A DNA stretch of 64,000 bases, taken from positions 195,546,565-195,610,564 of the forward strand of contig CM060988.1 of the NCBI GenBank assembly GCA_030765065.1, read 5' to 3'. Shown here piece by piece: positions 9,071 to 62,640 of this stretch; position 1 is the stretch's first letter; each line of letters opens with the position of its first letter. A program made the position numbers and the translations under genes. The DNA comes from Deroplatys truncata. Taxonomy: Eukaryota; Arthropoda; Insecta; Mantodea; Mantidae. The notes below the pieces were generated by a model, which was not told where the DNA came from, ran no database searches, and worked only from the letters and a program-made list of their open reading frames with translations.

Positions 9071-9780
9071 AGGTTGTCTCATAAGTAATGTCGGTTTTTA
9101 AGTTTGGTGGTTTATAAGATAGAATTGATTTTCTTTGGCTCGCCACAGGATGCCATGGCTAGTACTGCAAGAATGTGTCAGTCGTCAGTTGTTAATACAC
9201 AATCACAAAATGGAAGTTACAAAGTTTGAGATTAGAGTTCTTCTAAAGCACTACTGGAAACAAGATTATAAAGTGCTGCCCCGGCTCGAAACATATGTGA
9301 AGTGGAAGGAGAAGGTGTCGTTAGTGAGCGTGTGGAACAACGATGGTTCCAACGTTTCAACACTGGAGAAGAAAACACTAAACATTTACCATTAGTTAAC
9401 CGAAATAGAGTTCTCTTGCAGCAGGACAATGCAACACCCCATACTGCACGAGCAACCATGACAAACATTCAGGAATTGGAAGGAATCAAACTGCTACCAC
9501 ACCCAGCATACAGCCCTGATCTTGAGTCTTCAGATTACCGTCTGTTTCAATCCATGGCCCGTTTCTTGCGTGGAAGAAATTTCGAAAACATTGAAGCTGT
9601 GGAAGGGGGTCTCACTGAATTCTTTAGAGACTGGTACGGTCGCGGGATAATAAACCTCGCTGAAACATGGCTAAAGACTATAGAATCTGATCGTCTCTAC
9701 TTTGAAGAGTAGTTTAATTTCTTATCAGAAAACGTTGCAAATAAAGTTTTGCTTAAAAACCGACTTTACTTATGAGACAG
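9071..9780 (+). mobile_element. mariner-like element with internal deletions
   Basis: Left end GGTTGTCTCATAAGTAATG and right end (minus reading) GCTGTCTCATAAGTAAAGTC form TIRs of about 30 bp that both run into TCGGTTTTTAAG. It is about 0.7 kb, half the usual length of roughly 1.3 kb, because most of the transposase middle is gone. The transposase is on the plus strand. Confidence 0.85.
9210..9712 (+). pseudogene. mariner transposase, deletion derivative
   Basis: The N-terminus starts MEVTKFEIRVLLKHYWKQ. After lost material, a frame at 9,302-9,712 keeps the catalytic C-terminal half: QQDNATPHTARA holds the second Asp, and YSPDLESSDYRLFQSM the third at the spacing of the DD34D group. It ends DRLYFEE with a TAG. 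The region with the first catalytic Asp is deleted, so the enzyme is dead. The TIRs could still be recognised by an intact relative. Confidence 0.85.
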
Positions 9781-22078: not shown

Positions 22079-22800
22079 TATATTTGTTTCTGCTTTAAAA
22101 ATCAATTACTAAAAAACACGCAAGAGAATGAACACTTTATGACAGTTTGTTTAATTATTTTAAATTGCTTTAATTGTTTAAATTAAATGAAAGCTCCATT
22201 GTGTAGAGGATTGTTAAAAAACCAAAAACGCTAAGAAAGAAAGAAAAAAAAAATGAAATTTTAAAATGAACATTTTTAATTCTAGTTTGTTACCTTTTTG
22301 CATATATGGGAAGACAGCCACAATAGGTACCAAAATTGAAAATAAATTTTGAAATTGTAGCTTCTGAATATTTCTCCAAAGTCCATTTTCCTCAGGTTTC
22401 CACATTTCAATGGTATATTCTCTTTAAACAGTTTATTTTAAAAAATATGTGCAGTATTTCTGCAGTCAGTTTTTTGTCGTTGTTTGTGGTTTCACATATA
22501 TATAAAATCCCAGATGGAGAAAATATAAACAGGAAGGATGTATTCAAATGAAAAGCAAATCCTGATAGAATAGCCTTTATTAGACATTTATTATTCACCC
22601 AACTGTTATGCACTTTATGCAAAGATGCAATTCAGAAATCTTGTAGGTGACCTTGACTGAATGATAGAGCATACTTTAATGTTTAAGTAGCAAAGACAAG
22701 CCATGCAAAGAGCCTCATAGCTTAATGCTAACATTGCAAGTTCTCTGCTCTGTGACTACACAAAGTTGGAAGAAACAAAGGCTGTAGCATTTCAACCCAA
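22079..22800. other. AT-rich, no gene seen
   Basis: Precedes the tandem array. The short frames here have no recognisable signature. Confidence 0.35.
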
Positions 22801-23877
22801 ATAACTGACTGTCATTCATCAACTGCAGCAATAGATTTAGCAAGGGATATTACACAAAATGCAAGCAAGAGTACAACATTTACCCCATTTCCTCAGAAAC
22901 TGTTACGCAGATAATGGCCCATATTCATCAACTGCATGAGGAATGGAGGCTTCTTCAGGTCTACATCAGGGAGACTTTCATAAACTGTGAGTAGAATAGC
23001 ATTTACTATACCAATTGCTCCAATTCCTAACAAGTGTTATTCAGATGCTCAACCATCTACAGTGAAATAGAGGCTTCTTTAGGTCTGTGTCAGTAGGACT
23101 TTCATTAAACTGTAAGACAATCACATTTTTTATGGTATTTGCTCAATTTTCTCAGAGAGTCTTGTTCAGATACTGGTGCTCATACATCAGTTACAGCAAA
23201 ATGAAGGTTTCTTCAGACTTATGCCACTGGGACGTTCAAAAACTGTGAGTAAGACCATGACTTTTGCCATAGTACTTACTCCATTACCTCAGAGAGCCTT
23301 GTTCAAATACTAAGCTCATCCATCTGCTACAGCAAAATGGAGGTTTCTTCAGATTTATGCCAGTGGGACTTTCATAAACTGTGAGTAAGACTATGAAATT
23401 TGCTACGCTAGTTGCTTCATTTCCTCAGAGAGCCTTATTCAAATACTAAGCTCATCCATCTGCTACAGCAAAATGAAGGTTTCTTCAGACTTATGCCAGT
23501 GGGACGTTCAAAAACTGTGAGTAAGACTATGACTTTTGCCATAGTACTTACTTCCATTCCCTCAGAGAGTCATGTTCAGGTACTACTAGTCATCTATCAG
23601 CTACAGTGGAATGCAGGCTTCTTCAGGCATATGCCAGTGAAACTGTCACAAACAGTAAGAGGATGGTATTTATTACAGTGGATGCTTCATTTCCTTAGAG
23701 CCTTATTCAGATACTGCCGCTTATCCATCAGCTTCAGGAGAATGTAGGGTTCTTCAGGTCTATACCAGTGGAATTTTCATAAACTCTGAGTAAGACAATC
23801 ACATTTACTATGGTAGTTGCTCCAATTCCTAATAACTCCTATTTAGACACTGGTGCTCACCATCAGCCACAGCAGTG

Positions 23878-24151
23878 TTGTCCTCCATGGTCTAGGGGTA
23901 CCATGCTAGCCTATAGTTCCCGAGGTCGTGGGGAAAACCCAGTGGAGGGTGATGGATTTTTTCAGGCATAAAAATCCTTCACATGGCTTCCTTTGGAAGG
24001 GAAGGAAAGTAAAGCCAGTGGTCTGGTGTCATAGATATATGGCAAACTTGATAAAGAGGCCTCTCAGCGAAATTTCTGGTCTTCACGCCCAATATAGAAT
24101 GGGATGCTAAGAAGCATAGTAGTAAAGAGCACCCATCAATGAAACTCAATT
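23878..24151 (+). mobile_element. SINE family A inside the array
   Basis: The head reads CCATGGTCTAGGGGTACCAT. The flanks repeat ATCAGC(C/T)ACAGCAG, a duplicated piece of the array unit. The insertion therefore postdates the local array units. Confidence 0.85.
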
Positions 24152-24152
24152 T

Positions 24153-26160
24153 AGTTATCAGCTACAGCAGAACCTAGTCTTCTTCAGGTCTATGCCAGTG
24201 GGACTTTCATAAACTGTGAGTAAGATGATGACATTTACTATAGTAGTTGCTTCAATTCCTAACAAGTTAGACACTGGTGCTGAGCATCAGCTAGAGTGAA
24301 ATAAAGGTTTCTTCAGGTCTATGCCAGTGGGACTTTCATAAACTGTGAGTAAGGTGATGACATTTACTATAGTAGTTGCTTCAATTCCTAACAAGTTAGA
24401 CACTGGTGCTGAGCATCAGCTAGAGTGAAATAAAGGTTTCTTCAGGTCTATGCCAGTGGGACTTTCATAAACTGTGAGTAAGGTGATGACATTTACTATA
24501 GTAGTTGCTTCAATTCCTAACAAGTTAGACACTGGTGCTGAGCATCAGCTAGAGTGAAATAAAGGTTTCTTCAGGTCTATGCCAGTGGGACTTTCATAAA
24601 CTGTGAGTAAGGTGATGACATTTACTATAGTAGTTGCTTCAATTCCTAACAAGTTAGACACTGGTGCTGAGCATCAGCTAGAGTGAAATAAAGGTTTCTT
24701 CAGGTCTATGCCAGTGGGACTTTCATAAACTGTGAGTAAGGTGATGACATTTACTATAGTAGTTGCTTCAATTCCTAACAAGTTAGACACTGGTGCTGAG
24801 CATCAGCTAGAGTGAAATAAAGGTTTCTTCAGGTCTATGCCAGTGGGACTTTCATAAACTGTGAGTAAGGTGATGACATTTACTATAGTAGTTGCTTCAA
24901 TTCCTAACAAGTTAGACACTGGTGCTGAGCATCAGCTAGAGTGAAATAAAGGTTTCTTCAGGTCTATGCCAGTGGGACTTTCATAAACTGTGAGTAAGGT
25001 GATGACATTTACTATAGTAGTTGCTTCAATTCCTAACAAGTTAGACACTGGTGCTGAGCATCAGCTAGAGTGAAATAAAGGTTTCTTCAGGTCTATGCCA
25101 GTGGGACTTTCATAAACTGTGAGTAAGGTGATGACATTTACTATAGTAGTTGCTTCAATTCCTAACAAGTTAGACACTGGTGCTGAGCATCAGCTAGAGT
25201 GAAATAAAGGTTTCTTCAGGTCTATGCCAGTGGGACTTTCATAAACTGTGAGTAAGGTGATGACATTTACTATAGTAGTTGCTTCAATTCCTAACAAGTT
25301 AGACACTGGTGCTGAGCATCAGCTAGAGTGAAATAAAGGTTTCTTCAGATCTACACCAGTGGGACACTCATAAACTGTGAGTAAGATGATGACATTTACT
25401 ATAGTAGTTGCTTCAATTCCTAACAAGTTAGACACTGGTGCTGAGCATCAGCTAGAGTGAAATAAAGGTTTCTTCAGATCTATACCAGTGGGACACTCAT
25501 AAACTGTGAGTAAGATGATGACATTTACTATAGTAGTTGCTTCAATTCCTAACAAGTTAGACACTGGTGCTGAGCATCAGCTAGAGTGAAATAAAGGTTT
25601 CTTCAGATCTATACCAGTGGGACTTTCATAAACTGTGAGTAAGATGATGACATTTACTATAGTAGTTGCTTCAATTCCTAACAAGTTAGACACTGGTGCT
25701 GAGCATCAGCTAGAGTGAAATAAAGGTTTCTTCAGATCTATACCAGTGGGACACTCATAAACTGTGAGTAAGATGATGACATTTACTATAGTAGTTGCTT
25801 CAATTCCTAACAAGTTAGACACTGGTGCTGAGCATCAGCTAGAGTGAAATAAAGGTTTCTTCAGGTCTATGCCAGTGGGACACTCATAAACTGTGAGTAA
25901 GATGATGACATTTACTATAGTAGTTGCTTCAATTCCTAACAAGTTAGACACTGGTGCTGAGCATCAGCTAGAGTGAAATAAAGGTTTCTTCAGGTCTATG
26001 CCAGTGGGACTTTCATAAACTGTGAGTAAGGTGATGACATTTACTATAGTAGTTGCTTCAATTCCTAACAAGTTAGACACTGGTGCTGAGCATCAGCTAG
26101 AGTGAAATAAAGGTTTCTTCAGATCTATACCAGTGGGACACTCATAAACTGTGAATAAGA
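24153..26160 (-). repeat. homogeneous 129-bp core of the exon-derived array
   Basis: The TATGCC/TATACC landmark recurs every 129 bp from 24,191 to 26,126, 15 intervals without any length change. Neighbouring units differ at only a few sites (GGTCTATGCC or GATCTATACC, ACTTTCAT or ACACTCAT, AAGGTGATG or AAGATGATG). The block from about 24,320 to 25,350 looks identical, and a second variant fills about 25,350-25,990. This pattern indicates recent local homogenisation. Confidence 0.95.
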
Positions 26161-26969
26161 CTGCTGCGGTAGTTGCTGCAATTCCTCAGAGAACCTTGTT
26201 CAGATACTAGTGCTCATCAATTAGGTACAGTAGAATGGAGGCTTCTTCAGGTTTATGCCAGTGGGACTGACACAAACTGAAAGGATTCTATTTATAACTG
26301 TAGTTGCTTCATTCCTTCAAAGAGTTTTGTTCAGATACTAGTGGTCATCCATCAGCTGTAGTCCAATGGAACCTTCTTCAGCGCTATGTCAATGGGACTG
26401 ACACAAACGGTGAGCAAACAAATGGTTGGAATTCACTACAGCAGTCACCCTTTTTCTTCAGAGACTGTTGTTTAAAATCAGTACCCACCACTGACTGCAA
26501 CAAAATGGTGGCTTCTTCATTGCTATGCCAGTGGGACTGACACAACTACAGGCAAAGGAATGGGTGAAATTTACTACGGTAGTTGTCCCATTTTCTCACA
26601 GACTTGTTCTGATACTGGTATCCTCTCACTGACTGGAACAGATGGTGGCTTCTTAAGGGTTATGCCAATGGAACAGCTATATGTACACCACCAGCAAGTA
26701 AATGGGAGAATACTAAGGGAATTGTCCTATTTGTTCAAAAGATGTTATGCAAACAATGTGACCATCCTTCAACTGCAGCAAAATGGAGGTTTCTTCAGGG
26801 GCATCCTAGTGATACTGTCACACATTGCTAGCAAGAGAATGGCATTTACAGCAGAGTTATTTCACTTCCTCTGGAATGTTTGTCCAGATGCTGATGGCTA
26901 CCTGTCAACTGCAGTGGAATGAAGGCTTCTTCAAGTGAGATTGACAGGCATAGTGAGCAATGTGGTATT

Positions 26970-27718
26970 TATTTAAAGGTGAGTCGGAATTGTTACACTA
27001 ACATCACTTAAGTTTACTCACTTAACATGTTTCGGGAAACGGTTGTTCCCATCCTCATAAGTTAATTCGACTGGCCCGTGTTGTTGGTGTTTCCGTTTTT
27101 TGGACTGGATACTGTGGTGGCATCTTGTGGTGGAGAAATGTACTTCCAGAGAAGATTTGGTGGCGGCAAATCAAAATTCATTAGATGTGTGTTGTGTTTT
27201 AGAATGGTGATCTTCTCCCATGCATCTAATTCGGCTGCAAATTTGGCTGGTTTGACTAATGTAATATTGGGTTTGATGTTGTGATTAGTGATCCAAAAAT
27301 GGTGTGAAACTGCAGATTTGTCCATTTGTTTGTATTTGATACATCTCATGTGCTCCTTTAGCCTAGTTTCTAGGTTTATTTTTGTCTTACCTATGTATAC
27401 TTTATTGCAATCTGAACAATTGATTTTATAGATTCCAGCTTTTTTGTCTTGTGGGATGGGGTCTTTTAACTTGTTACAAAGTAATTTCTCTATGTTAAAT
27501 TTGTTCTGTGGAGCTAGGCTGATGTTGTGTTTCATGAAAATCTTCTTAAATTTGTGAGATCCACCACAGTATCCAGTCCAAAAAATGGAAACACCAACAA
27601 CACGGGCCAGTCGAATTAACTTCTGAGGATGGGAACAACCATTTCCCGAAACATGTTAAGTGAGTAAACTTAAGTGATGTTAGTGTAACAATTCCGACTC
27701 ACCTTTAAATAAATTCAA
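26970..27718 (-). mobile_element. Penelope-like element fragment with inverted ends
   Basis: About 150 bp at the left end is repeated in reverse at the right end: AAAGGTGAGTCGGAATTGTT on the left and its complement on the right, continuing to the GGACTGGATACTGTGG region. Between them lies a minus-strand GIY-YIG frame, typical of Penelope-like elements. The reverse transcriptase part is absent. The right copy contains CTGAGGATGGGAACAACC, then TTTCCCGAAACATGTT, a hammerhead-ribozyme-like core. Such motifs are known in Penelope-like terminal repeats. Confidence 0.75.
27062..27535 (-). pseudogene. GIY-YIG endonuclease domain of a Penelope-like element
   Basis: An open 157-codon stretch. KKAGIYKINCSDCNKVYIGK is the GIY...YIG signature, followed by LETRLKEHMRC with the conserved Arg, and H and E further on (AAELDAWEKI). 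Upstream, KFNIEKLLCNKLKD resembles the linker from the reverse transcriptase part. In these elements the domain nicks target DNA for retrotransposition. The frame is intact in itself but lacks the polymerase, so the fragment is not autonomous. Confidence 0.85.
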
Positions 27719-27943
27719 TATACATCACTGTTTCTAGCTTCTTTTCATTACAATATCAACGTAATGTGGTTCTTTTCCTCAGATACCGTAGTTCAAATAC
27801 TGATGCTCATACATCAGCTGTAGAGGAATGGCGGCTTCTTCAAGGGTATGCCATTGGGATTGACACACATTAAGTACAACAAATATCAACCTTGGCATTT
27901 GTTGACAAGGTTGGCCCAGGAAGTATTGCCCAGACATTGAATC

Positions 27944-28188
27944 TCAACCATCACTGCAGCGGAATGGAGGCTTCTTCAGGGGTATACCAGTGGGACCATC
28001 AGAGTATTGACACACCCTGCGAGCAAGAGGGTGACATTTACTGTGGGGATTCCCCCATCTGCCCAGAAAGTGCATCCAGGAGGGGGTGTTTCCTTCAGAC
28101 AAAATCTCTAGTTTCTGCCAAGTCGCCCAAGGTATGCCATAACCTCCCTCGTCGTACAGCCGTGGCACTCGGACATACCTGTGACGAC
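27944..28188 (-). CDS. Vps62-like protein, exon 5 (terminal)
   Basis: Acceptor GGTCTGTTACAG; two bases complete a codon begun in exon 4. The frame then reads YVRVPRLYDEGGYGIPWATW, WMHFLGRWGNP, SKCHPLARRVC and DGPTGIPLKKPPF, ending with TGA at 27,944-27,946. These are C-terminal motifs of the Vps62/DUF946 type (W..F..RWG.P). The molecular function of the family is poorly defined; the name comes from a yeast vacuolar protein sorting gene. The last third of the exon is the parent of the tandem array that follows the stop. A poly(A) signal could not be chosen with confidence because array and insertion sequence follow at once. Confidence 0.88.
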
Positions 28189-30072: not shown

Positions 30073-30229
30073 AAATATTGTTTCTAAATTTGAAATAAAA
30101 AAGTAAAACAAAAAAGACTGTGATGAGGTTCACATAATTATACAATACATTTAAAGTCATTTTGGAAAAAATACTGGCATGATGCAATTAAATGGACTAT
30201 AAATTCGGATTCACCACATTGAGATTATA

Positions 30230-31097
30230 CAGGATATTTCAGAAATACTTTTACAAACTTTGGGTATGGGTTCCTTACATCACAAGAAGGAAAAAGTTCA
30301 TATGAACATATGTCCCATAATCCAAACAATGGATTGGCTGTTTGTGCTACAAACCATCGGCAAAAGTTATCCCATGGTGGATAATCGGCAGGCGAAAGGC
30401 CCTGCACACGTTGAATGTGATATGGATACAGGAGCTGCTCGTGAAGTACCCTCCATGCTGTCACGTGTGATGTACCAGATGCCACAGACAATTGTCTTGT
30501 ACTGATACCTGGATCGTCTTCGACACACTTTAACATCTGTTCTTCGCATTCCGACGTACGAACAACTCTTGGTCTTCCTCGATCAATAGTCCATGGTGTA
30601 ACGGTTCCTATCTTAGCAAGGCTACGATAAACAGCGACAAACGTTGGATGACTTGGTTGTCTTCGGTCTGGAAACTCCATCTGATAGAGTCATGCAGCCT
30701 CACGTCCATTACCATTCGCGTGATCATACATAAAAATCATGTCTGCCTGTTCACGAAATGAATATCCAGCCATGGTGGAACGAAACACGTGCAGTTAACT
30801 CACTACATGTACACAATTGAAACAGACTAATGACAAATGACAAACCTAAACAAGTCTCCATGGCAACACTTCGCCATCTACCGTATGTATCACAATGGGT
30901 CAACGCCTTCTAGGAATGCTATGAGAAATGAAGTTTTGAGGTTGGACCCCGAAGGCCGTTGAACTCACACTTTCATTAAGACAGGAATAACGCAAAAACC
31001 AAGGAATATGGGACATACGTTCATATGAACTTTTTTCCTTTTTTTGATGTGAGGAACCCATACCTGAAGTTTGTAAAAGTATTTCTAAAACACCTGG
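30230..31097 (-). mobile_element. Tc1/mariner-superfamily element keeping only the N-terminal half
   Basis: Ends CAGGATATTTCAGAAATACT on the left and, on the minus strand from the right, CCAGGTGTTTTAGAAATACT are inverted, flanked by TA, and continue inward as TTTTACAAACTT and a GGGTTCCT(T/C)ACATCA stretch. The 0.87-kb body holds the start of a transposase on the minus strand. It lies in intron 4, the same strand as the host gene. Confidence 0.85.
30240..30778 (-). pseudogene. Tc1/mariner-like transposase N-terminal domain
   Basis: It starts MAGYSFREQADMIFMYDHAN. After an in-frame stop it continues from 30,680 as FPDRRQPSHPTFVAVYRSL, GRPRVVRT, DDPGISTRQLSVA and TAWRVLHEQLLYPYHIQRVQ. This is the paired-like HTH DNA-binding half of an insect transposase lineage. 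The DDE catalytic half is deleted. The relic at 58,018-58,960 is the complementary catalytic half of the same lineage. Confidence 0.8.
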
Positions 31098-31287: not shown

Positions 31288-31510
31288 CAGGAGCTGTCCA
31301 CAGACCATGGGACCCCTTGGCAGCAAATAAAACAGGGTGTTGTCCATTTGGTTGCATGAGATGTACTGTAGCAGGGAATGTGGGTCTCTGCACCACGCCC
31401 TTCCTCAACTCTTGGCGCTCGAACTTGAACTTGAGGGTCTTGGTGTCGAACCTGTAATAGGCCCCAGCATCGTGTGCTGACACATACATGGCTTCCGGAG
31501 TGCTCCGTCC
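31288..31510 (-). CDS. Vps62-like protein, exon 4
   Basis: Acceptor TTTTCTTGTGCAG and donor CTG/GTGAGTAT. It enters in phase 0 and leaves in phase 1. The frame reads GRSTPEAMYVSAHDAGAYYR, KFERQELRKGVVQRP, HPVLFAAKGSHGLW and ends TAPG. AHDAG and AKGSHGLW are the conserved middle motifs of the family. Phase and motif order fit exon 3 before and exon 5 after. No disabling change is seen. Confidence 0.9.
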
Positions 31511-38756: not shown

Positions 38757-39037
38757 CCTGAATATTAGACTCACGTGTTCCCAGTCGCCCACATGATTGC
38801 CGAACACTTTGGTGGTGCCCAGACAGCGACCTCGGAACAGCGGGATGGGCCAAGGCCCCAAGGGTCCTAGACTTAGCGTGCACATGGCTTTACCCTGGCT
38901 GTAGGGGTAGAACATCCAGTAGGTGACGTGGAACTCAGAATCTTCAGGACACGGTGTGAGGAGAGCATACGCGGGCACTGGGTGATGTGTCGGCCTCCTG
39001 CCATGCAAGAACGAGGATGCGTTCTTCACTAGGGCAT
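38757..39037 (-). CDS. Vps62-like protein, exon 3
   Basis: Acceptor GACATGTGTTTCAG and donor TTCAGG/GTGAGAGA. Two bases complete the codon begun in exon 2; the exon leaves in phase 0. It reads ALVKNASSFLHGRRPTHH, FHVTYWMFYPYSQGK, GPLGPWPIPLF, VFGNHVGDWEHVSLIFR. GxHVGDWEHV is the best-conserved motif of Vps62/DUF946 proteins. The first 60 or so bases and the acceptor are the parent of the array at 39,038-39,990. The exon is intact. Confidence 0.92.
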
Positions 39038-39990
39038 CTGAAACACATGTCACAGAGTGAGAAAAGTACTGAGTGTTGTCAGGGGCTCCTGCTGCGCAAG
39101 AACGAGGATGTGTTCATCACCAGGACATCTGAAACAGAAGGAGCAGTATGGGAAGCGCAGTGGGGATGTGTCGGACTCCTGCCATGCAAGAACGAGGATG
39201 TGTTCATAACCAGGACATCTGAAACAGAGGGAGCAGTATGAGAAGCACAGTGGGGATGTGTCGGACTCCTGCCATGCAAGAACGAGGATGTGTTCATAAC
39301 CGGGACATCTGAAACAGAGGGAGCAGTATGAGAAGCGCAGTGGGGATGTGTCGGATTCCTGCCATGCAAGAACGAGGATGTGTTCATAACCAGGACATCT
39401 GAAACAGAGGGAGCAGTATGAGAAGCGCAGTGGGGATGTGTCGGGCTCCTGCCATGCAAGAACGAGGATGTGTTCATAACCAGGACATCTGAAACAGAGG
39501 GAGCAGTATGAGAAGCGCAGTGGGGATGTATCGGTCTCCTGCCATGCAAGAACGAGGATGTGTTGTTCACCTCTTCACCAGGACATCTGAAACAGAGGGA
39601 GCAGTATGAGAAGCGCAGTGGGGATGTGTCGGGCTCCTGCCATGCAAGAACGAGGATGTGTTGTTCACCTCTTCACCAGGACATCTGAAACAGAGGGAGC
39701 AGTATGAGAAGCGCAGTGGGGATGTGTCGGGCTCCTGTCATGCAAGAACGAGATGTGTTGTTCACCTCTTCACCAGGACATCTGAAACACCGGGCATAGT
39801 GTGATAAGGACACCTGGTGTTGTATCGGGGTCCTGGCATGCAAGAACGAGATGTGTTCTTCACTTCTTCACCAGGACATCTGAAACTTAGGGAACAATGT
39901 AAGAAGGGCACTGGGTGTTGTATCGAAATTCTGGCCTTCAAGCACGGACGTGTTTTTCACCAGGGCATCTGAAAGTGAGGGAAGAGTGTG
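39038..39990 (-). repeat. tandem array of the exon 3 start and its splice acceptor
   Basis: The landmark AACGAGGATG recurs at 39,010 (the true exon), 39,101, 39,191, 39,281, 39,371, 39,461, 39,551, 39,649, 39,747 and 39,845, with a faint copy near 39,945. The spacing is 90 bp, then 98 bp after an 8-bp gain (TTCACCTC). On the minus strand each unit repeats the acceptor (CCCTCTGTTTCAG) and the exon start: DVLVMNTSSFLHG where the true exon has DALVKNASSFLHG. Five units are open in one frame from 39,570 to 39,079, but the unit next to the real exon has a stop. No unit contains a donor. Confidence 0.92.
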
Positions 39991-40890: not shown

Positions 40891-41052
40891 CTATGTCCAT
40901 ATTAGTGAATAGATACCAGGATTCTGAATCCTTCCCCTCAGGAATAGCACGTGCTGTCACGTGAGGCAGGAAGTCCTGCACCGCGCTGGGGAAGTACTGC
41001 TCTCCTGGTGCCAGCCATACAAGTGGTGCCCACAGTCTTACCAACTGTTCTA
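40891..41052 (-). CDS. Vps62-like protein, exon 2
   Basis: Acceptor TTAATGTTGCAG and donor ATAG/GTGAGTCA. With two bases completing the prior codon it reads EQLVRLWAPLVWLAPGEQYF, AVQDFLPHVTARAI and SWYLFTNMDI, and leaves in phase 1. The start (LV..APLVWL.P.E.YFPS) matches the beginning of the mature domain in secreted Vps62-like proteins. An alternative acceptor six codons downstream is less likely because TTGCAG is preceded by a better tract and fits the phase of the signal-peptide exon. Confidence 0.88.
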
Positions 41053-44716: not shown

Positions 44717-46901
44717 GAATCAAGTTTTTATGCTGATTTCAGAAATAACTTCCGTTTTTTTTCTATCACGTCAGGTTTTTACACAAAATAAGAAGTAATG
44801 TTTTGACATTTTACTAATGAGCGTAGAAAAGTATTCAAATACCATTTCACACAAGGCAAGTTTTTATTCAAGAAACATTTTAAGAATACTCTCAAGAACT
44901 CCCCTAATTTATTTCATGACTACATTTTAACAAATCAAGAAGCCAAAGTGTTTCATTTAATTTTTTTCAAACTTTCTCTTCTTTGACTTCCTTGCAGATC
45001 CTTGAAGATGACTGTCCCTCCTCAGCATCCAACAGTAGTCGGCCATCATAGTTTCATTCCATCTCCCCTAGTATCTCCTCTCCATTTCCTTAATATCTTG
45101 GTGAAAACGTTCACCCTGCTCTTCACTTTAATGTCCCAGATTTTCTGGAAAGTAGTCGATATGTGAATGCAGAAAATGCACCTTTACACTCATGTTACAA
45201 CCCATCTTCTTGAAATTTTCCAACATTGTTTCGACAATGGCTTTGTAATTAGGATCTTTGTTATTGCCTAAGAAGTTTTCAGTAACTGATCGGAAGGCGG
45301 TCCATGCTTCTATTTCTCTCTCATTCATTGTCTTCTCAAAATCTTCATCCTTCATCAATTTCATTTGAGAACCAAAAAAATTCCAGCCTTTAATTTGTCT
45401 TGTGTAATGAAGGGAAATTTCTTGGAAAGGTACTTGAAGCAGGGTCCATCCTTTGGTAGAGCCCTTACAAATTGCTTCATCAAGCCCAATTTTATGTGTA
45501 GTGGCGGAAGCAATATCTTTTGTCTCTCTACAAGCGGTTCGTGCAGGATGTTTTTAGTTCCAGGCAACAAGTTTCTCCGCTGTGGCCATACTTTCACACT
45601 CCAATGTCTTTGCTATGCCCAACTGTCCCATTCGCACAGAAAACAAGGCATTTTTGTGAACCCAGCTTGTTGTCCTAATAGTATTCCAATAACTTTGAAA
45701 TCACCGCAGATACGCCATTTGTGTTCCTCGTATTGGATACTTGTTAAAAGTATCTTCTTGTTTTCAACTGTCTCTTTCATTTGAACTGAATGTGCGACAG
45801 GAATGGACCCATACACATTCCCATTATGCAGTAACATGCCTTTCAGGCTCCTGTTTGATGAATATATAAAAAGTCTCCACTGAGTAGGATCCTGTTCAAT
45901 GTCATAAAAGTGCATTAACTCGTTTATGTTATTGCAGTAAACCAAGGACTTGATCTGTGAGAAAAAAAAGGCACTAGCTCTTGTTCTCTGTGTCTGTACC
46001 ATGAGTAATGTGCTCCTGGTTCCAGAAGATTCTAATTTTTAAGACGGGAGTCTAGTAACTCTGCAGATTCCTTAGACAAATTCAAATCACATACTAGATC
46101 ATATAGTTCACTCTGAGAGAACAGCTGTGGAGTCACGTCGTATTCAGGGCGGTAGACATCAGAATCGTCTTCGATGATTGCATGAGGTTCACTTTCAACA
46201 CCATCTTCTTCCAAGTTCTCTAAAACAGCTGTAGGAAGAAGAGCAGCAGATCTTCTCCGTGTGGAACTGGCCTGATGGCTGAAGGAATACTTGGATACAC
46301 AATGTGTTTATTATTTTTCGAATTGCACCCCTGAACATTAACTAAACAGAAATAACAGTCTTTAAGGTGGTCTATAGGCTCCCTCCACACCATAGGAATT
46401 GCAAATGGCATGCATGATTTCTTTCCTTTTATCCACAATCTTAACCTCTCAACACAATAGCGGCAAACTGTCTTTGGAGCCCAGGCCTTGTCTTGGTCGT
46501 ACACTTTTTTCACAAAGTCTGTTATATCAGTTCTCTGCTGAAGCACTGTATAATTTCCACAAATGTAGCAGAAAACATTTGGATTGTTCACACACTTGCG
46601 TGTAGACACAATGTATTTATAACTTCAATCACGATATAGCACTGGTAATGCAAGCCTCTGATATTAACAACAATGCCTAAATTACAAATAGCAACCAGCA
46701 TCTACAGGTGTAACAACCTAAAGACTTACAAGTCTGTATTGAGAAATTTCCCTCCAAGAAGTGACAAATTTCCCTTCAACAATACTCATCATCTACTGGC
46801 TCAACTCTATATTTTTGAAGTGAAATTGTGAAGAAAAAAAAACTGTACGTGATAGAAAAAAACTGAAAGCAGTTCTGAAATCAGCATAAAAAAGTGAGTC
46901 A
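44717..46901 (-). mobile_element. DNA transposon of unassigned class with about 50-bp TIRs
   Basis: The left end reads TTTTTATGCTGATTTCAGAA. The right end read on the minus strand is TTTTTTATGCTGATTTCAGAA, and both continue to a T-rich stretch and TCTATCACGT. A TGA(A/C)TCA motif precedes both. A minus-strand gene of about 550 codons fills the inside. No target-site duplication could be fixed. Superfamily is not assigned. Confidence 0.7.
44957..46609 (-). pseudogene. multi-copy CYFC-type protein of a TIR element, broken
   Basis: Successive minus-strand frames follow the order of a protein I recall as highly multi-copy in arthropods and Hydra and of unknown function. In order: VCRYCVERLRLW, MVWREPIDHLKDCYFC, IRPVPHG (46,609-46,220); LYDLVCDLNLSKESAELLDS (46,214-46,032); EQDPTQWRLFIYSSNRSLKG, LLHNGNVYGSIPVAHS, GFTKMPCFLCEWDSW (46,002-45,613); LLPPLHIKLGLMKQFVRALP (45,597-45,361); FLGNNKDPNYKAIVE, VHFLHSHIDYFPENLG (45,364-45,128); then SEEQGERFHQD and KSKKRKFE to a stop at about 44,957. 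There are a few frame changes and stops. Conserved Cys pairs suggest zinc-binding N-terminal and central modules. A nuclease role is not established. Confidence 0.75.
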
Positions 46902-48235: not shown

Positions 48236-49275
48236 ACAGAGTGAGCGAAAAGACTCCGAACCGCCTACGCGGTGTTTTTCCTGTCCGCGTCCTCGGCGCT
48301 CGTTGCTGTCTGCCGCTATCATAGAAAGGCGCGGATGAAACCATACAATATTTTTAAAACTACTTTTAAAGGCTTTACTTACCAACTTTATGAAAGGAAA
48401 TGCTGAAACTGGCCAGCGTCGATGTCCATAAATTTTTGGCACCTCTTTAGGAAACTATCCATCATGGAATTTTAGGGGGGAATTTTTCAAACGATGACCG
48501 ACGTCGTCTAATGTTTCTTCGGTAAGAACCGAACGCCGTCTTTTAGATTCTTAGCCTGAACACTCCCTGTAGCCTGAAATTTACTGTAAAGTTCATGGAT
48601 TGTTGTACGGCCTGCAACTTTTACACCTGGAAATCTTTCTGCAAATCGTACTTTCACTTGGGAGCTGACCGAGTTAACACATACGAATCATAAATAAATA
48701 CACGCTGTGCAGTAGAAAACATATACTGAGCCATAATATGCTTTGTGACTAAGTACAGGACAAAATAATAAATAATTCTTAATAACTGAACTACATCACG
48801 TCACCGTCAACTCAAAACCGCACAGCAAAACCACAACAGTGTGACTGTTTATAGCAGCAGTGCGTTATCATGTTTTTATCATATTTGCACACGTCCAGTG
48901 GAAAAACACCGCACAGCCGGTAATATTGTTCATAAAATACCTCTCCGGGGTAACTTAAAACAAAGTGTATAAAACAAACCTACACACCCTGGAAGAATTA
49001 AAACAAAATATCCGCCAGCAAATTCCTCAACGTGAACTACGGCGAGTGATGGATAGTTTCCTAAACAGTTGCCAAAAATGTATGGACAACGACGGTGGCA
49101 AGTATCAGCATCTCCTTTCATAAAGCTGGTAAGTAAAGCTTTTAAAAGTACTTTTAAAAATGTTTTATGGTTTCATTCGCGCCTTTCTATGATAGCGGCA
49201 GACGGCAACGAGCGCCGAGGACGCGGACAAGAAAACCACCGCGCAGGCGGTTCGGAGTCTTTTGGCTCACTCTGT
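48236..49275 (-). mobile_element. Tc1/mariner-type foldback derivative, about 230-bp inverted ends
   Basis: The left arm 48,236-48,470 (CAGAGTGAGCGAAAAGACTC ...) and right arm 49,030-49,275 (minus reading CAGAGTGAGCCAAAAGACTC ...) are inverted copies. The right arm reads RVMDSFLNSCQKCMDNDGGK on plus, and the left arm reads FLKRCQKFMDIDAGQF on minus, so both carry a transposase C-terminus. Between them the minus strand has a transposase start (MAQYMFSTAQRVFIYDSYVL; then RFAERFPGVKVAGRTTIH). It is a deletion and inversion derivative, not coding. Confidence 0.8.
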
Positions 49276-52176
49276 ATTACGGCTCTACAGTACATATACA
49301 CCTGCAACCAAAGCACTGCTTACACAATACGATCCCGACATCATAACGGCAAATGAGACAAAACTAAAGCCATACAACACCTTCAGTTTCCCCCCCTACC
49401 AGGTATACAGACATGACCGCCAATCAGAACCAGGAGGAGGAGTACTTATGCTAATCAAACCGCAACACCGGACTAAACTCATATCACTACCGGACCAATT
49501 TAAAGCAGAAGAGGCAGTGCTAGTCCAAATTAAAATCCACACGCAAGTACTGCATATAGCCACGATTTATGCCACACCGACGAACATGTCGACAAAGAAT
49601 AACCATTTCCCTGCAGCTCTGCTTAAATATATGGACGCCAAATACAACAGCCTCCTGGTAGTAGGGGATCTAAACGCCCAACATCAGAGCCTCCTGGATG
49701 TAACTACCAACTATTATGGAAAGCAACTACTCAAACTCTTATCCAACACATCACTGCAAGTTGCACTAATACCAGGATCCACCAGAATCGGTACAAGAAA
49801 TCAGCAACCCTCATCACCGGATAAAATACTAACTTCACCACAGCTATACCACAAAATCATCGGCATAACCACCGACGCACCCATCAACACCGACCATCTG
49901 CCTGTAATAGTTACCCTGGCCACCCAAAGATGGCACTATGAAGTGCGACAACCATACGAAGTACCGGACTTCACCAGAGCAGACTGGAAGGCCTACAGGC
50001 AAAAGATAACTGAACAAATCAACAACACACCTCCAAACGCCCAGGGCACCACCGTGCAACAGATAGAAACAGAAGAGGCAACACTACGAAACATAATTAC
50101 AGCCGCTAAACAGCACGCTATACCAACAACCAAAAGGAACCCGGACAGAAATATTAATACACTCCCAACAGACATAATCGCCGTCATCAAGCAGAAGAGA
50201 AAGGCCCACAGGCAGTACATGAAAACGCATCACCCATATGACAAAATGGTGTTAAATCACCTGCAGGAGGCCGTTAAAACAGCAATTACAAAGTATAGGG
50301 AATCAAAATGCACGCACTACATCAACACACTAAATGAAAAAAGAACCAACGACCCGCGGACATTCTGGCAGCTAATCAGAGCAACAAGAGGTAAACATCA
50401 CACCACATACCCAATCAAACAAAATGGACGTCACATCTGGAACACAACAGAGAAACTAAACATTTTTAAAACACATTATGACAATGTATTTAAAACGCCA
50501 GATGACCCAAAGTTTAATAGCCAATACTTCAATCGAATCAACTATCATGTCAACAACAGCCCACATCTGTACACACCGCAGGAGCAACTATGCGAGCCCC
50601 CTGAAGCGGACGGTCCCGCCAAACCCATCACCAAAAATGAATTGAAGACCACAATACAAATCCAAGGAAATACTGCCCCCGGGCCTGACCAGATAACCTA
50701 CCAGATGTTAAAAGAACTACCAGATAGCATAATAAACCGTCTGCTGCAACTCTACAACGCCTGCCTTCATCATGGCTACCACCCGACCAACTGGAAACAT
50801 GCGCATATCCTCTTATTCGAAAAACCAGGAAAAGACCACACGGATCACCAAAACTACAGACCTATCTCACTCACAGCAACGCTATAAAAAATCTTGGAAA
50901 AAATACTGGTCACTCGTCTGCAGTCTTATCTCAAGCACCACAACATAATTCCAGAAACTCAGGCGGGCTACAGAAACGATATAACAATACAGGACCAACT
51001 ACTCAGGGTGATATCAGACATGCAAGACAACTTCAATAAAAGCAAGACAACCGTTGCAGCCTTTCTGGACATAAAATCCGCGTTCGATAAATGCTGGATC
51101 AACGGCCTCCTATACAAAATGACCTCTCTTAACCTTCCGAGAAAGATAATTCGATGGACGGCCAGCTTCCTGCAGAATCGGACAGCCAATCTCAAAATCA
51201 ACAACACACTATCGGATACAATTCATCTAAAAGCCGGCACGCCGCAAGGGAGCGCCATTTCCGGCCTCTTGTATATAATCTACACTGCTGACACGCCAAA
51301 ACCAATAGTACCCACCGTCAATCTAGCGCAATATGCCGACGATACACTCTACTGGTGCTCGGAGTTCAGAGCAACAGTAGCCAAAAAAAGACTGGAACGC
51401 CAGCTCAAGGAGTTCGTACAATGGGCAAAAAACTGGCGAATTTCAATTAACATGGATAAAACCCAAATACTTACCATCAAGAGAAAAGGCCGCTTTGCAA
51501 AGACTGCACTTCGGTCAACATCGATGGGAAACTCATTAAATCAAAAGAAACGGCCAAATATCTGGGCATTACAATCACAAATAAACTAAAAACTAACCAG
51601 CACTTCAATCAGAAAATAAAGCAGACCAAAGCCATGCTATCAACAATGAGATACCTGGCAAACAAAACTAACGCAGGCCTCACCACAAAAGCCCTACTCC
51701 ACCTATATGTAGCACTCGTCAGGCCGGTACTAACCTATGGAACAACAGCGCTGGCGCCCATAACGTCAGCAACAACAATACATCTCCTACAGACAGTAGA
51801 ACGTAAATGCCTTCGGATAGCAGCAAAGGTGCCCTACTGTTATTCCAACAGGAAACTATACCAACTAGTAAAGACCGAAACGCTGCCAGACTTCATAGAG
51901 AGAGGGCTCCTCAACTACGCAGCAAAAGCCAGCAAACTCCAACACAGGCAACAACTACTGCAAAATTCTGAAAATTACAAGAAAGACGCACCTAACCAGT
52001 GCAAAAAAATCACGACACCACCCCTAGCATACATAAGGGCACTAGTCCAAGAGAGAGAGAGACACAAGACCAAATGGAAGCAACGCTCTATCTCCAGAAT
52101 CTCCTTCAATGAAGCAAGAAGAATATTAACCTACAATATTAAAATGACTGGCCATGGTTACCACACCTTCAAATAA
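49276..52176 (+). pseudogene. LINE ORF2: endonuclease and reverse transcriptase
   Basis: Frame 49,262-50,887 holds an APE-type endonuclease: DIITANETKL with the catalytic Glu, EPGGGVLML, LLVVGDLNAQH and INTDHLPVIV. The reverse transcriptase then starts with NTAPGPDQITYQML and YRPISLTATL. An in-frame stop at 50,885-50,887 is followed in the same frame by KILEKILVTRL, TVAAFLDIKSAFDKCW, GTPQGSAISGLLYIIY and LAQYADDTLYW with the YADD active site. A frame change near 51,500 precedes the C-terminal part (51,634-52,176, LQTVERKCLRIAAKVP). One stop and one frameshift make this a fairly young copy. It would cut target DNA and prime reverse transcription if intact. Confidence 0.9.
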
Positions 52177-61617: not shown

Positions 61618-62640
61618 CAGACTGCCACCGCTGTTTACCAACAACTCTTTAAAGGAATTTCTGGAACCTACTATGACTATGACAAAATATTTGCAGATGG
61701 TTCAAAAACCCAAATTCATATACAAGTCTCTCTGGTTACTTATCAATTTATTCTAGTGAGTTATATGCTCTGAAATAAGCATTTTCATACATTACAGAAT
61801 CCCATAAACAACTATACACAATTTTTTCAGATTCAAAAAGTGCTATCTTAGCCACTCAAAATATACATACAAAAAACAAACTTATCCAAGAAATACAGAT
61901 GTCTTATAACCATGCAATGGAACAAGGAAAACAAGTGTTTTCAATTCCATCGCACCAACAAATACGAGGCAATGAGAGAGCGGACGAAGCAGCTAAAGCG
62001 GCTATCCAAAAACCAACATTTAATACAGAGATAACAACAAGCCATTCAGACAGCTCTATACAACCGAACCAAAATCATTACTTCATGCAAAAATATATGG
62101 TCTCAAAAAACAAGCTGATTACTGTAAAAGGATCTTCAAACAACAAATGTATTTTTACAAACTTAAACAGGAAACATCAAGTTATCATTACCAGCTTAAG
62201 AATTGGAAATACAAAGATGACACACTCTTATCTGATCAGCACAGAAACTTGGCTGCAGTGTTGAACATGCAAAACTCCATTGACAGTTTCCCATGTACTT
62301 GCAGAATGCCAACATTATAACCCACACAGGAAAATATATAACATCCCAAATAATATTAGCTGTCTTAATGATTCAAAAATGTAGAAAAAGATTATAATGT
62401 TCTTACAAACTATACAAATGTGTAATGAGATTTAAAACAATTGTAATACTATTAAAACTGTTCTTTAATTGTATTGTTCACATAAGAAAAGCTATATCTG
62501 TGTATTATCAAATGATATTATGTATGTATATTCCTAGAAATCTATTAATGTTCATCCACCACTATATGAATGTAAGAGTTGCGAATAGACCTTTGTGAGT
62601 TAAAGCGACTTAAAGTAAATAAATTAAAAAAGAAAGAAAG
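61618..62640 (+). mobile_element. LINE 3' end with RNase H domain
   Basis: A 5'-truncated LINE starts directly after the E1 end. It holds an RNase H domain, a 3' UTR, and the end GAGTTAAAGCGACTTAAAGT followed by an A-rich (AAAG) tail at about 62,624-62,650. The 3' end is shared with the SINE at 7,384-7,824. Confidence 0.8.
61660..62264 (+). pseudogene. LINE-encoded ribonuclease H domain, partial
   Basis: The plus strand reads DKIFADGSKTQ (first Asp), SSELYALK (Glu), FSDSKSAILA (Asp) and IPSHQQIRGNERADEAAKAA (His and last Asp), so all RNase H active-site residues are visible, across one or two frame changes before 61,899. The open part 61,899-62,264 continues to a stop after WLQC. This domain follows the reverse transcriptase in I-type LINEs. 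The polymerase is missing. Confidence 0.85.

Follow-up and report, generated by a model that had tools for sequence, protein, structure and literature searches.

A Vps62-like gene and the tandem array behind its stop codon

The locus occupies part of a 64-kb window (the whole stretch of DNA analysed, in whose coordinates all positions are given) and consists of a Vps62-like gene on the minus strand and a tandem array that follows its stop codon (Table 1). Joining exons A to D at their GT-AG boundaries gives a single frame of 270 codons that stays open up to a TGA stop. The joined protein matches the Vps62 family (PF06101) with 27.6 bits against a cut-off of 22.1; the single exon frames score below the cut-off (A, 13.8; B, 11.7) or give no match (C and D). 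Membership in the family is further indicated by the C-terminal WGN...C...GPTG..K region, which the gene has in common with 51 bacterial relatives in the alignment. No additional upstream exons and no 5′ end of the gene were detected at E values up to 0.05 with the N-terminal parts of bacterial relatives as queries, and a search for plasmid relatives yielded none at 0.01, with two poor Streptomyces matches at E values of 5 and 6. Judged by its sequence, the parent gene looks ordinary and intact. Its introns and the numerous mobile-element remains give the window a eukaryotic character, and an insect origin may be guessed.

Table 1 Features of the Vps62-like locus and its tandem array
Feature	Coordinates	Strand	Remarks
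Exon A, most upstream exon found	40891-41052	-	Joined open frame, GT-AG
Exon B	38757-38941	-	Splice sites aag/ATT and CAGG/gtgaga
Exon C	31288-31510	-	Splice sites cag/GGA and CCTG/gtgagt
Exon D (terminal, with stop codon; array parent)	27944-28188	-	Open to stop, GT-AG sites
Unit-homologous part of exon D	27944-28075	-	Upstream edge uncertain by ~30 nt; nhmmer match to 28071
Proximal units u26240-u27833, split by an insertion	26211-27938	-	Strongest divergence in the six units next to the exon
GIY-YIG fragment insertion	26967-27762	-	ORF 27065-27655, inverted arms, flanks AATGTGGT at 26959-26966 and 27763-27770
Homogenised core, period 129	24180-26159	-	14 consecutive units anchored at 24306-25983, 9 identical (TRF)
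SINE-like repeat insertion	23876-24156	.	14-nt flanking repeat, 13/14 alike (by eye)
Distal units	22832-23861	-	Intermediate divergence, dimeric higher-order repeat u23206/u23478, partial unit at end
Partial distal unit	22832-22947		Without anchor motif, outside the 30 units
AATAAA pair just past the distal end of the array	22576-22592	-	First bases 22592 and 22581

The array spans approximately 22.83-27.94 kb and comprises 30 anchored units and one partial distal unit. A pattern scan for the unit motif returned 28 matches, with none expected from 100 shuffles; three more anchors were added by eye, so that the 31 anchors represent the 30 units and the exon itself. Anchors are spaced 123-141 bp apart, save at two insertions. 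Tandem Repeats Finder (TRF) delineated a core of 15.3 copies with 98% matches and looser runs on either side. The units are arranged head to tail and evolve in concert, i.e., they are both tandem and homogenised, as in a satellite. The initial annotation had placed a 5-kb array immediately after the stop codon; the array is indeed there, although about 1.1 kb of that length corresponds to two later insertions.

The larger insertion carries an ORF with a GIY-YIG domain (PF01541, 26.6 bits versus a cut-off of 22.6). It has inverted arms with 97.5% identity over 159 nt, lies between two copies of an 8-nt repeat, and is presumably derived from a Penelope-like element. The other is a SINE-like repeat that recurs five more times in the window at 73-77%. 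Both entered the array at a later stage. Searches of the 22.5-28.3 kb region for Rfam families, including the hammerhead ribozyme, gave no match at E values up to 1, and a 25-nt word from the core had no occurrence in viral contigs.

Several other features of the window should be mentioned. Another tandem array lies within the same gene, in the intron that precedes exon B (38942-39971, minus strand), and is composed of 11 units, mostly of 90 or 97-98 bp. Each of these opens at an acceptor-like TTTCAG, and the last one abuts the acceptor of exon B itself; if used as an acceptor, the CAG at 39040-39038 would add 32 codons with the frame remaining open. At 45128-46624, also on the minus strand, there are three successive open frames of 134-141 aa, two of which were scanned against Pfam without a match at E values up to 1. 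Remains of mobile elements are located at 9272-9712, 30228-30689, 49196-52176, and 61779-62264; among them are mariner-type sequences (PF17906 above and PF13358 below the cut-off), a weak Tc-type helix-turn-helix and an RNase H stretch, neither of which reaches its cut-off, and long plus-strand frames which we take to be non-LTR reverse transcriptase. Across the whole window, the only Rfam hit was a tRNA-like match at 710-783, at the gathering threshold, and ARAGORN predicted no tRNA.

Homology between the units and the terminal exon, and its direction

A profile built from 21 unique units matches exon D at 28071-27969 (envelope to 28081) with an E value of 6.8e-14. It should be noted that one of these units, u27833, carried about 25 nt of the exon tail, which lies outside the matched segment. 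All matches of the profile at E values up to 10 fall within 22784-28081, and the rest of the window is free of them; the outermost match with good support is at 22946-22850 (envelope to 22832; E=2.8e-10), and a single match beyond it is not significant (E=0.32). In pairwise comparisons, the exon and the units share 54-66% identity over 101-138 ungapped columns. Alignment scores reach 51-91 in 17 of the 19 units tried, compared with maxima of 32-39 for dinucleotide-shuffled units, the score of u27833 being inflated by the exon's own tail in that cut. Of the two remaining units, u26925 scored 36 against a shuffled maximum of 34, and u22955, which was cut out of phase, scored 29 against 33. The E value of the exon match and the motif count given above together uphold the proposal that the tandem array is real and related to the exon. 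The homologous stretch had been described as the last coding third of the exon; it in fact covers approximately half of it (~28075-27944), and only its best-conserved part amounts to a third.

The peptide PTGIDLKKP, noted earlier in several units, is encoded exactly in 14 of the 30 and as a looser pattern in 25. The nucleotide motif CTGAAGAA is likewise present exactly in 25 of the 30 units and absent from the partial distal one. Shortly before its stop codon (27944-27962), the exon is without one base that the aligned units have; as a consequence, units whose frame is intact reach their TGA two codons sooner. This difference may reflect a change either in the exon or in the founder copy, each requiring one step. 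We also considered an exact duplication breakpoint marked by GAGATT at both ends and rejected it, since the flank behind the stop codon aligns at another place, with a score that is not clearly above chance: 100 shuffles out of 2000, and 31 genomic windows out of 732, score as high.

The resemblance and adjacency of exon and units would equally be expected if an older satellite unit had been captured as the last coding stretch of the gene, since adjacency by itself has no direction. The direction can be read from bacterial outgroups. Six search patterns matched 55 stretches of genome contigs, 51 of which encode a relative. In tblastn comparisons, the match extends beyond residue 255 of 271 in 45 of the 51 relatives and stops short of it in six, but all 51 could be aligned once read on to their own stop codons. 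In the stretch of the exon that has its homolog in the units, W235, G236, and P256 are conserved in 51/51 relatives, G255 in 50/51, N237 in 48/51, C250 in 45/51, K263 in 40/51, G258 in 35/51, and T257 in 22/51, and C242 is the same in 37 of the 45 relatives with a residue at that column. The proposal that protein motifs conserved in the family lie in the exon is thereby borne out. W235 was partly selected for, because it falls within one of the six search patterns (residues 228-235), and the relatives are not independent of each other, many being closely related myxobacteria or streptomycetes.

The spacing between C250 and PTG (C-x5-PTG) in the exon is that of the family. By contrast, all 30 units have a gap before PTG, of 11 nt in 28 of them, 12 nt in u26510, and 7 nt in u26647; this gap arose in the founder copy or very early. 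Because the family-like state, i.e., the conserved stretch together with the spacing, sits in the exon and the units share the gap, the exon is the parent, as the initial annotation had considered likely. The bacterial outgroups thus rule out the exon as recipient, a reading to which we assign a negligible probability. The isoleucine of PTGI, present in the exon and most units, falls in a column that is empty in all 51 bacterial proteins; allowing that the placement of this gap is the aligner's, this would fit descent of the units from the exon of this lineage. Accordingly, the single-copy segment from which the array derives is identifiable and older than the array, although the bacterial homologs are too distant to show the birth of the array itself.

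Coding potential and turnover of the units

The recurrence of the peptide raises the question whether the units serve as alternative last exons or coding repeats, selected for PTGI-LKKP. Besides the loose motif in 25 of 30 units, this reading could draw on the splice-acceptor-like CTCACAG just ahead of the motif in many units and on the unusual conservation of CTGAAGAAGCCT. Selection on a protein leaves an excess of changes at third codon positions. In the 39 nt from PTG to C of the 16 outer units (all but the 14 core units, and including the mosaic units u24177 and u26112), minor letters amount to 40/208, 41/208, and 43/207 at the three codon positions, i.e., there is no bias, as counted on an alignment with one misjoined unit, u26925. 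This result leads us to reject units selected as coding sequence, and PTGIDLKKP in the units is best regarded as a fossil. Furthermore, the 11-nt gap shifts the stretch before PTG out of the frame of the exon, and the acceptor-like CAG is gone from several proximal units. The 14 exact readings of the peptide are found in the core and at its edge, and are not independent evidence, since those near-identical units are recent copies of each other. Altogether, working alternative exons are most improbable.

In all likelihood, the array is local satellite DNA without a function. The purine-rich CTGAAGAAGCCT is a point against a purely neutral array, which would not predict such a block: it represents the most conserved 12 columns of the 16 outer units (P=0.004, by column permutation that ignores kinship), with the proviso that the same motif had served to find the units and that the partial distal unit does not contain it. 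That partial unit was left out of all alignments, codon and conservation counts, and trees.

Divergence is distributed unevenly along the array. The median K2P distance between the exon and the 16 outer units is 0.57; it is 0.61 within the six proximal units u26371-u27833, 0.37 within the seven distal units, and 0.59 between the proximal and distal groups. The proximal units are therefore about as diverged from each other as they are from the exon. Taken as time, a distance of 0.57 might correspond, at a guess, to tens of millions of years. In the core, by contrast, nine of the 14 units are identical. Comparison with the exon alone reveals no gradient, because identity is 54-66% at all distances. 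A tree of the units with the exon as one tip, as had been proposed, places the exon beside u26788 and u27833, but on weak branches, with bootstrap values of 47-83 (one of the nine identical core units being retained) or of 64-74 when the exon was set as outgroup.

Mosaic units, dimeric repeats, and graded divergence are the marks expected under the unequal exchange model. Units u26112 and u24177 at the core edges are each half core and half old unit. In the distal part, u23206 and u23478, which are two units apart, differ by a K2P distance of 0.09, compared with 0.16-0.18 to the unit between them, and thus form a dimeric higher-order repeat. These patterns suggest unequal exchange, and turnover would be active farther from the exon.

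Two other accounts of the young core have to be weighed. The exon-derived unit might have become a dispersed satellite, with this locus being one of many arrays and possibly re-expanded from elsewhere; such a history would agree with the large difference in age between the young core and the older edges. However, u24177 and u26112 provide transitions between core and edge units at this very locus, and the absence of the unit from the rest of the window does not point to dispersal, making this account improbable. Alternatively, the identity of nine core units might partly be an artefact of assembly with a wrong copy number, which would be compatible with a local origin of the array. This we regard as very improbable: the 14 units comprise five distinct sequences, some of which combine letters of others, and the diverged edges need no such explanation.

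Origin of the array and comparison with known satellites

Collectively, these observations make it highly probable that the end of exon D was duplicated, decayed, and expanded into a local array. We infer that the array began with a tandem copy, placed directly behind the exon, of a ~130-140 bp piece made up of the last ~44 codons with the stop codon and the first few bases beyond it. As the shared gap and the outgroups show, the founder copy lost about 11 bp, so that it no longer encoded the C-terminus of the family. Freed from coding, the copies probably multiplied by unequal exchange or slippage and diverged. Later, the middle of the array was apparently re-homogenised, old units being left at the edges, a pattern that is directly visible and for which exchange is the presumed mechanism.

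Throughout, the gene would have kept its own exon and presumably its own 3′ end, which would now lie ~5 kb farther off, at 22.58-22.59 kb, where the AATAAA pair is a candidate for the original 3′ end of the gene. Between the stop codon and the end of the array, AATAAA occurs on the minus strand only at 27406, 27380, and 26973, all within the insertion, and at 23674, within a unit. Nevertheless, the pair is suggestive only, because five other such close pairs are found on the minus strand of the window. It follows from this placement that the array may lie in the 3′ UTR of the gene. About 30 decayed copies of the last exon would then be co-transcribed, and only crossovers that spare the exon would be tolerated, leaving the proximal units frozen while the core turns over; we consider this extension unlikely. 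If it were true, copy number would tune the length of the 3′ UTR, and the GIY-YIG insertion would now be a source of earlier poly(A) signals.

Many satellites, to our knowledge, have no traceable parent. Here, a single locus holds the parent next to old copies, intermediate ones, and a young core, and the direction of change can be read from protein outgroups, making it an unusually readable example of a satellite-like repeat starting from a gene. The locus offers a testable case of a piece of a selected coding exon turning into concertedly evolving non-coding DNA, in which it can also be tested whether selection on the parent shields neighbouring units from exchange.

In alpha-satellite arrays, diverged edges surround a homogenised core. 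The array described here resembles them in its young core, old edges, and higher-order repeat, but consists of only ~30 units and is not known to be centromeric. As to seeds, rDNA spacers and transposable elements are given as origins of satellites in the portion of a review consulted (PMC5615363), coding exons not being named in that portion; such satellites likewise have an identifiable seed that expanded in tandem, but their seeds were already repetitive. The CharSat01-52 array is, like ours, a satellite at a gene 3′ end, in the 3′ UTR or last intron of ppfia1, where the authors suggest that it was inserted (PMC8210747). The present array, in contrast, is homologous to the exon itself. A satellite seeded by a coding last exon was not encountered among the matches listed (titles and abstract starts, open-licence literature). 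Although the initial annotation fairly called the array unusual, there is a precedent for a satellite traced to a gene: according to extracts of two later articles (PMC7210261, PMC8210747), the CapA satellite of New World monkeys has been traced to an intron of NOS1AP (Valeri et al. 2018). CapA, too, has a single-copy protein gene as its seed, and its authors invoke duplication and unequal crossing-over; however, its seed is intronic, its unit is ~1,500 bp long, and it is found at several chromosomal sites (same extracts). Our array derives from a coding last exon, stop codon included, has a unit of ~130 bp, lies at its parent's own 3′ end, and is known from this one locus in the 64-kb window. 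By analogy, the coding last-exon seed may be viewed as a variant of gene-intron-born satellites such as CapA.
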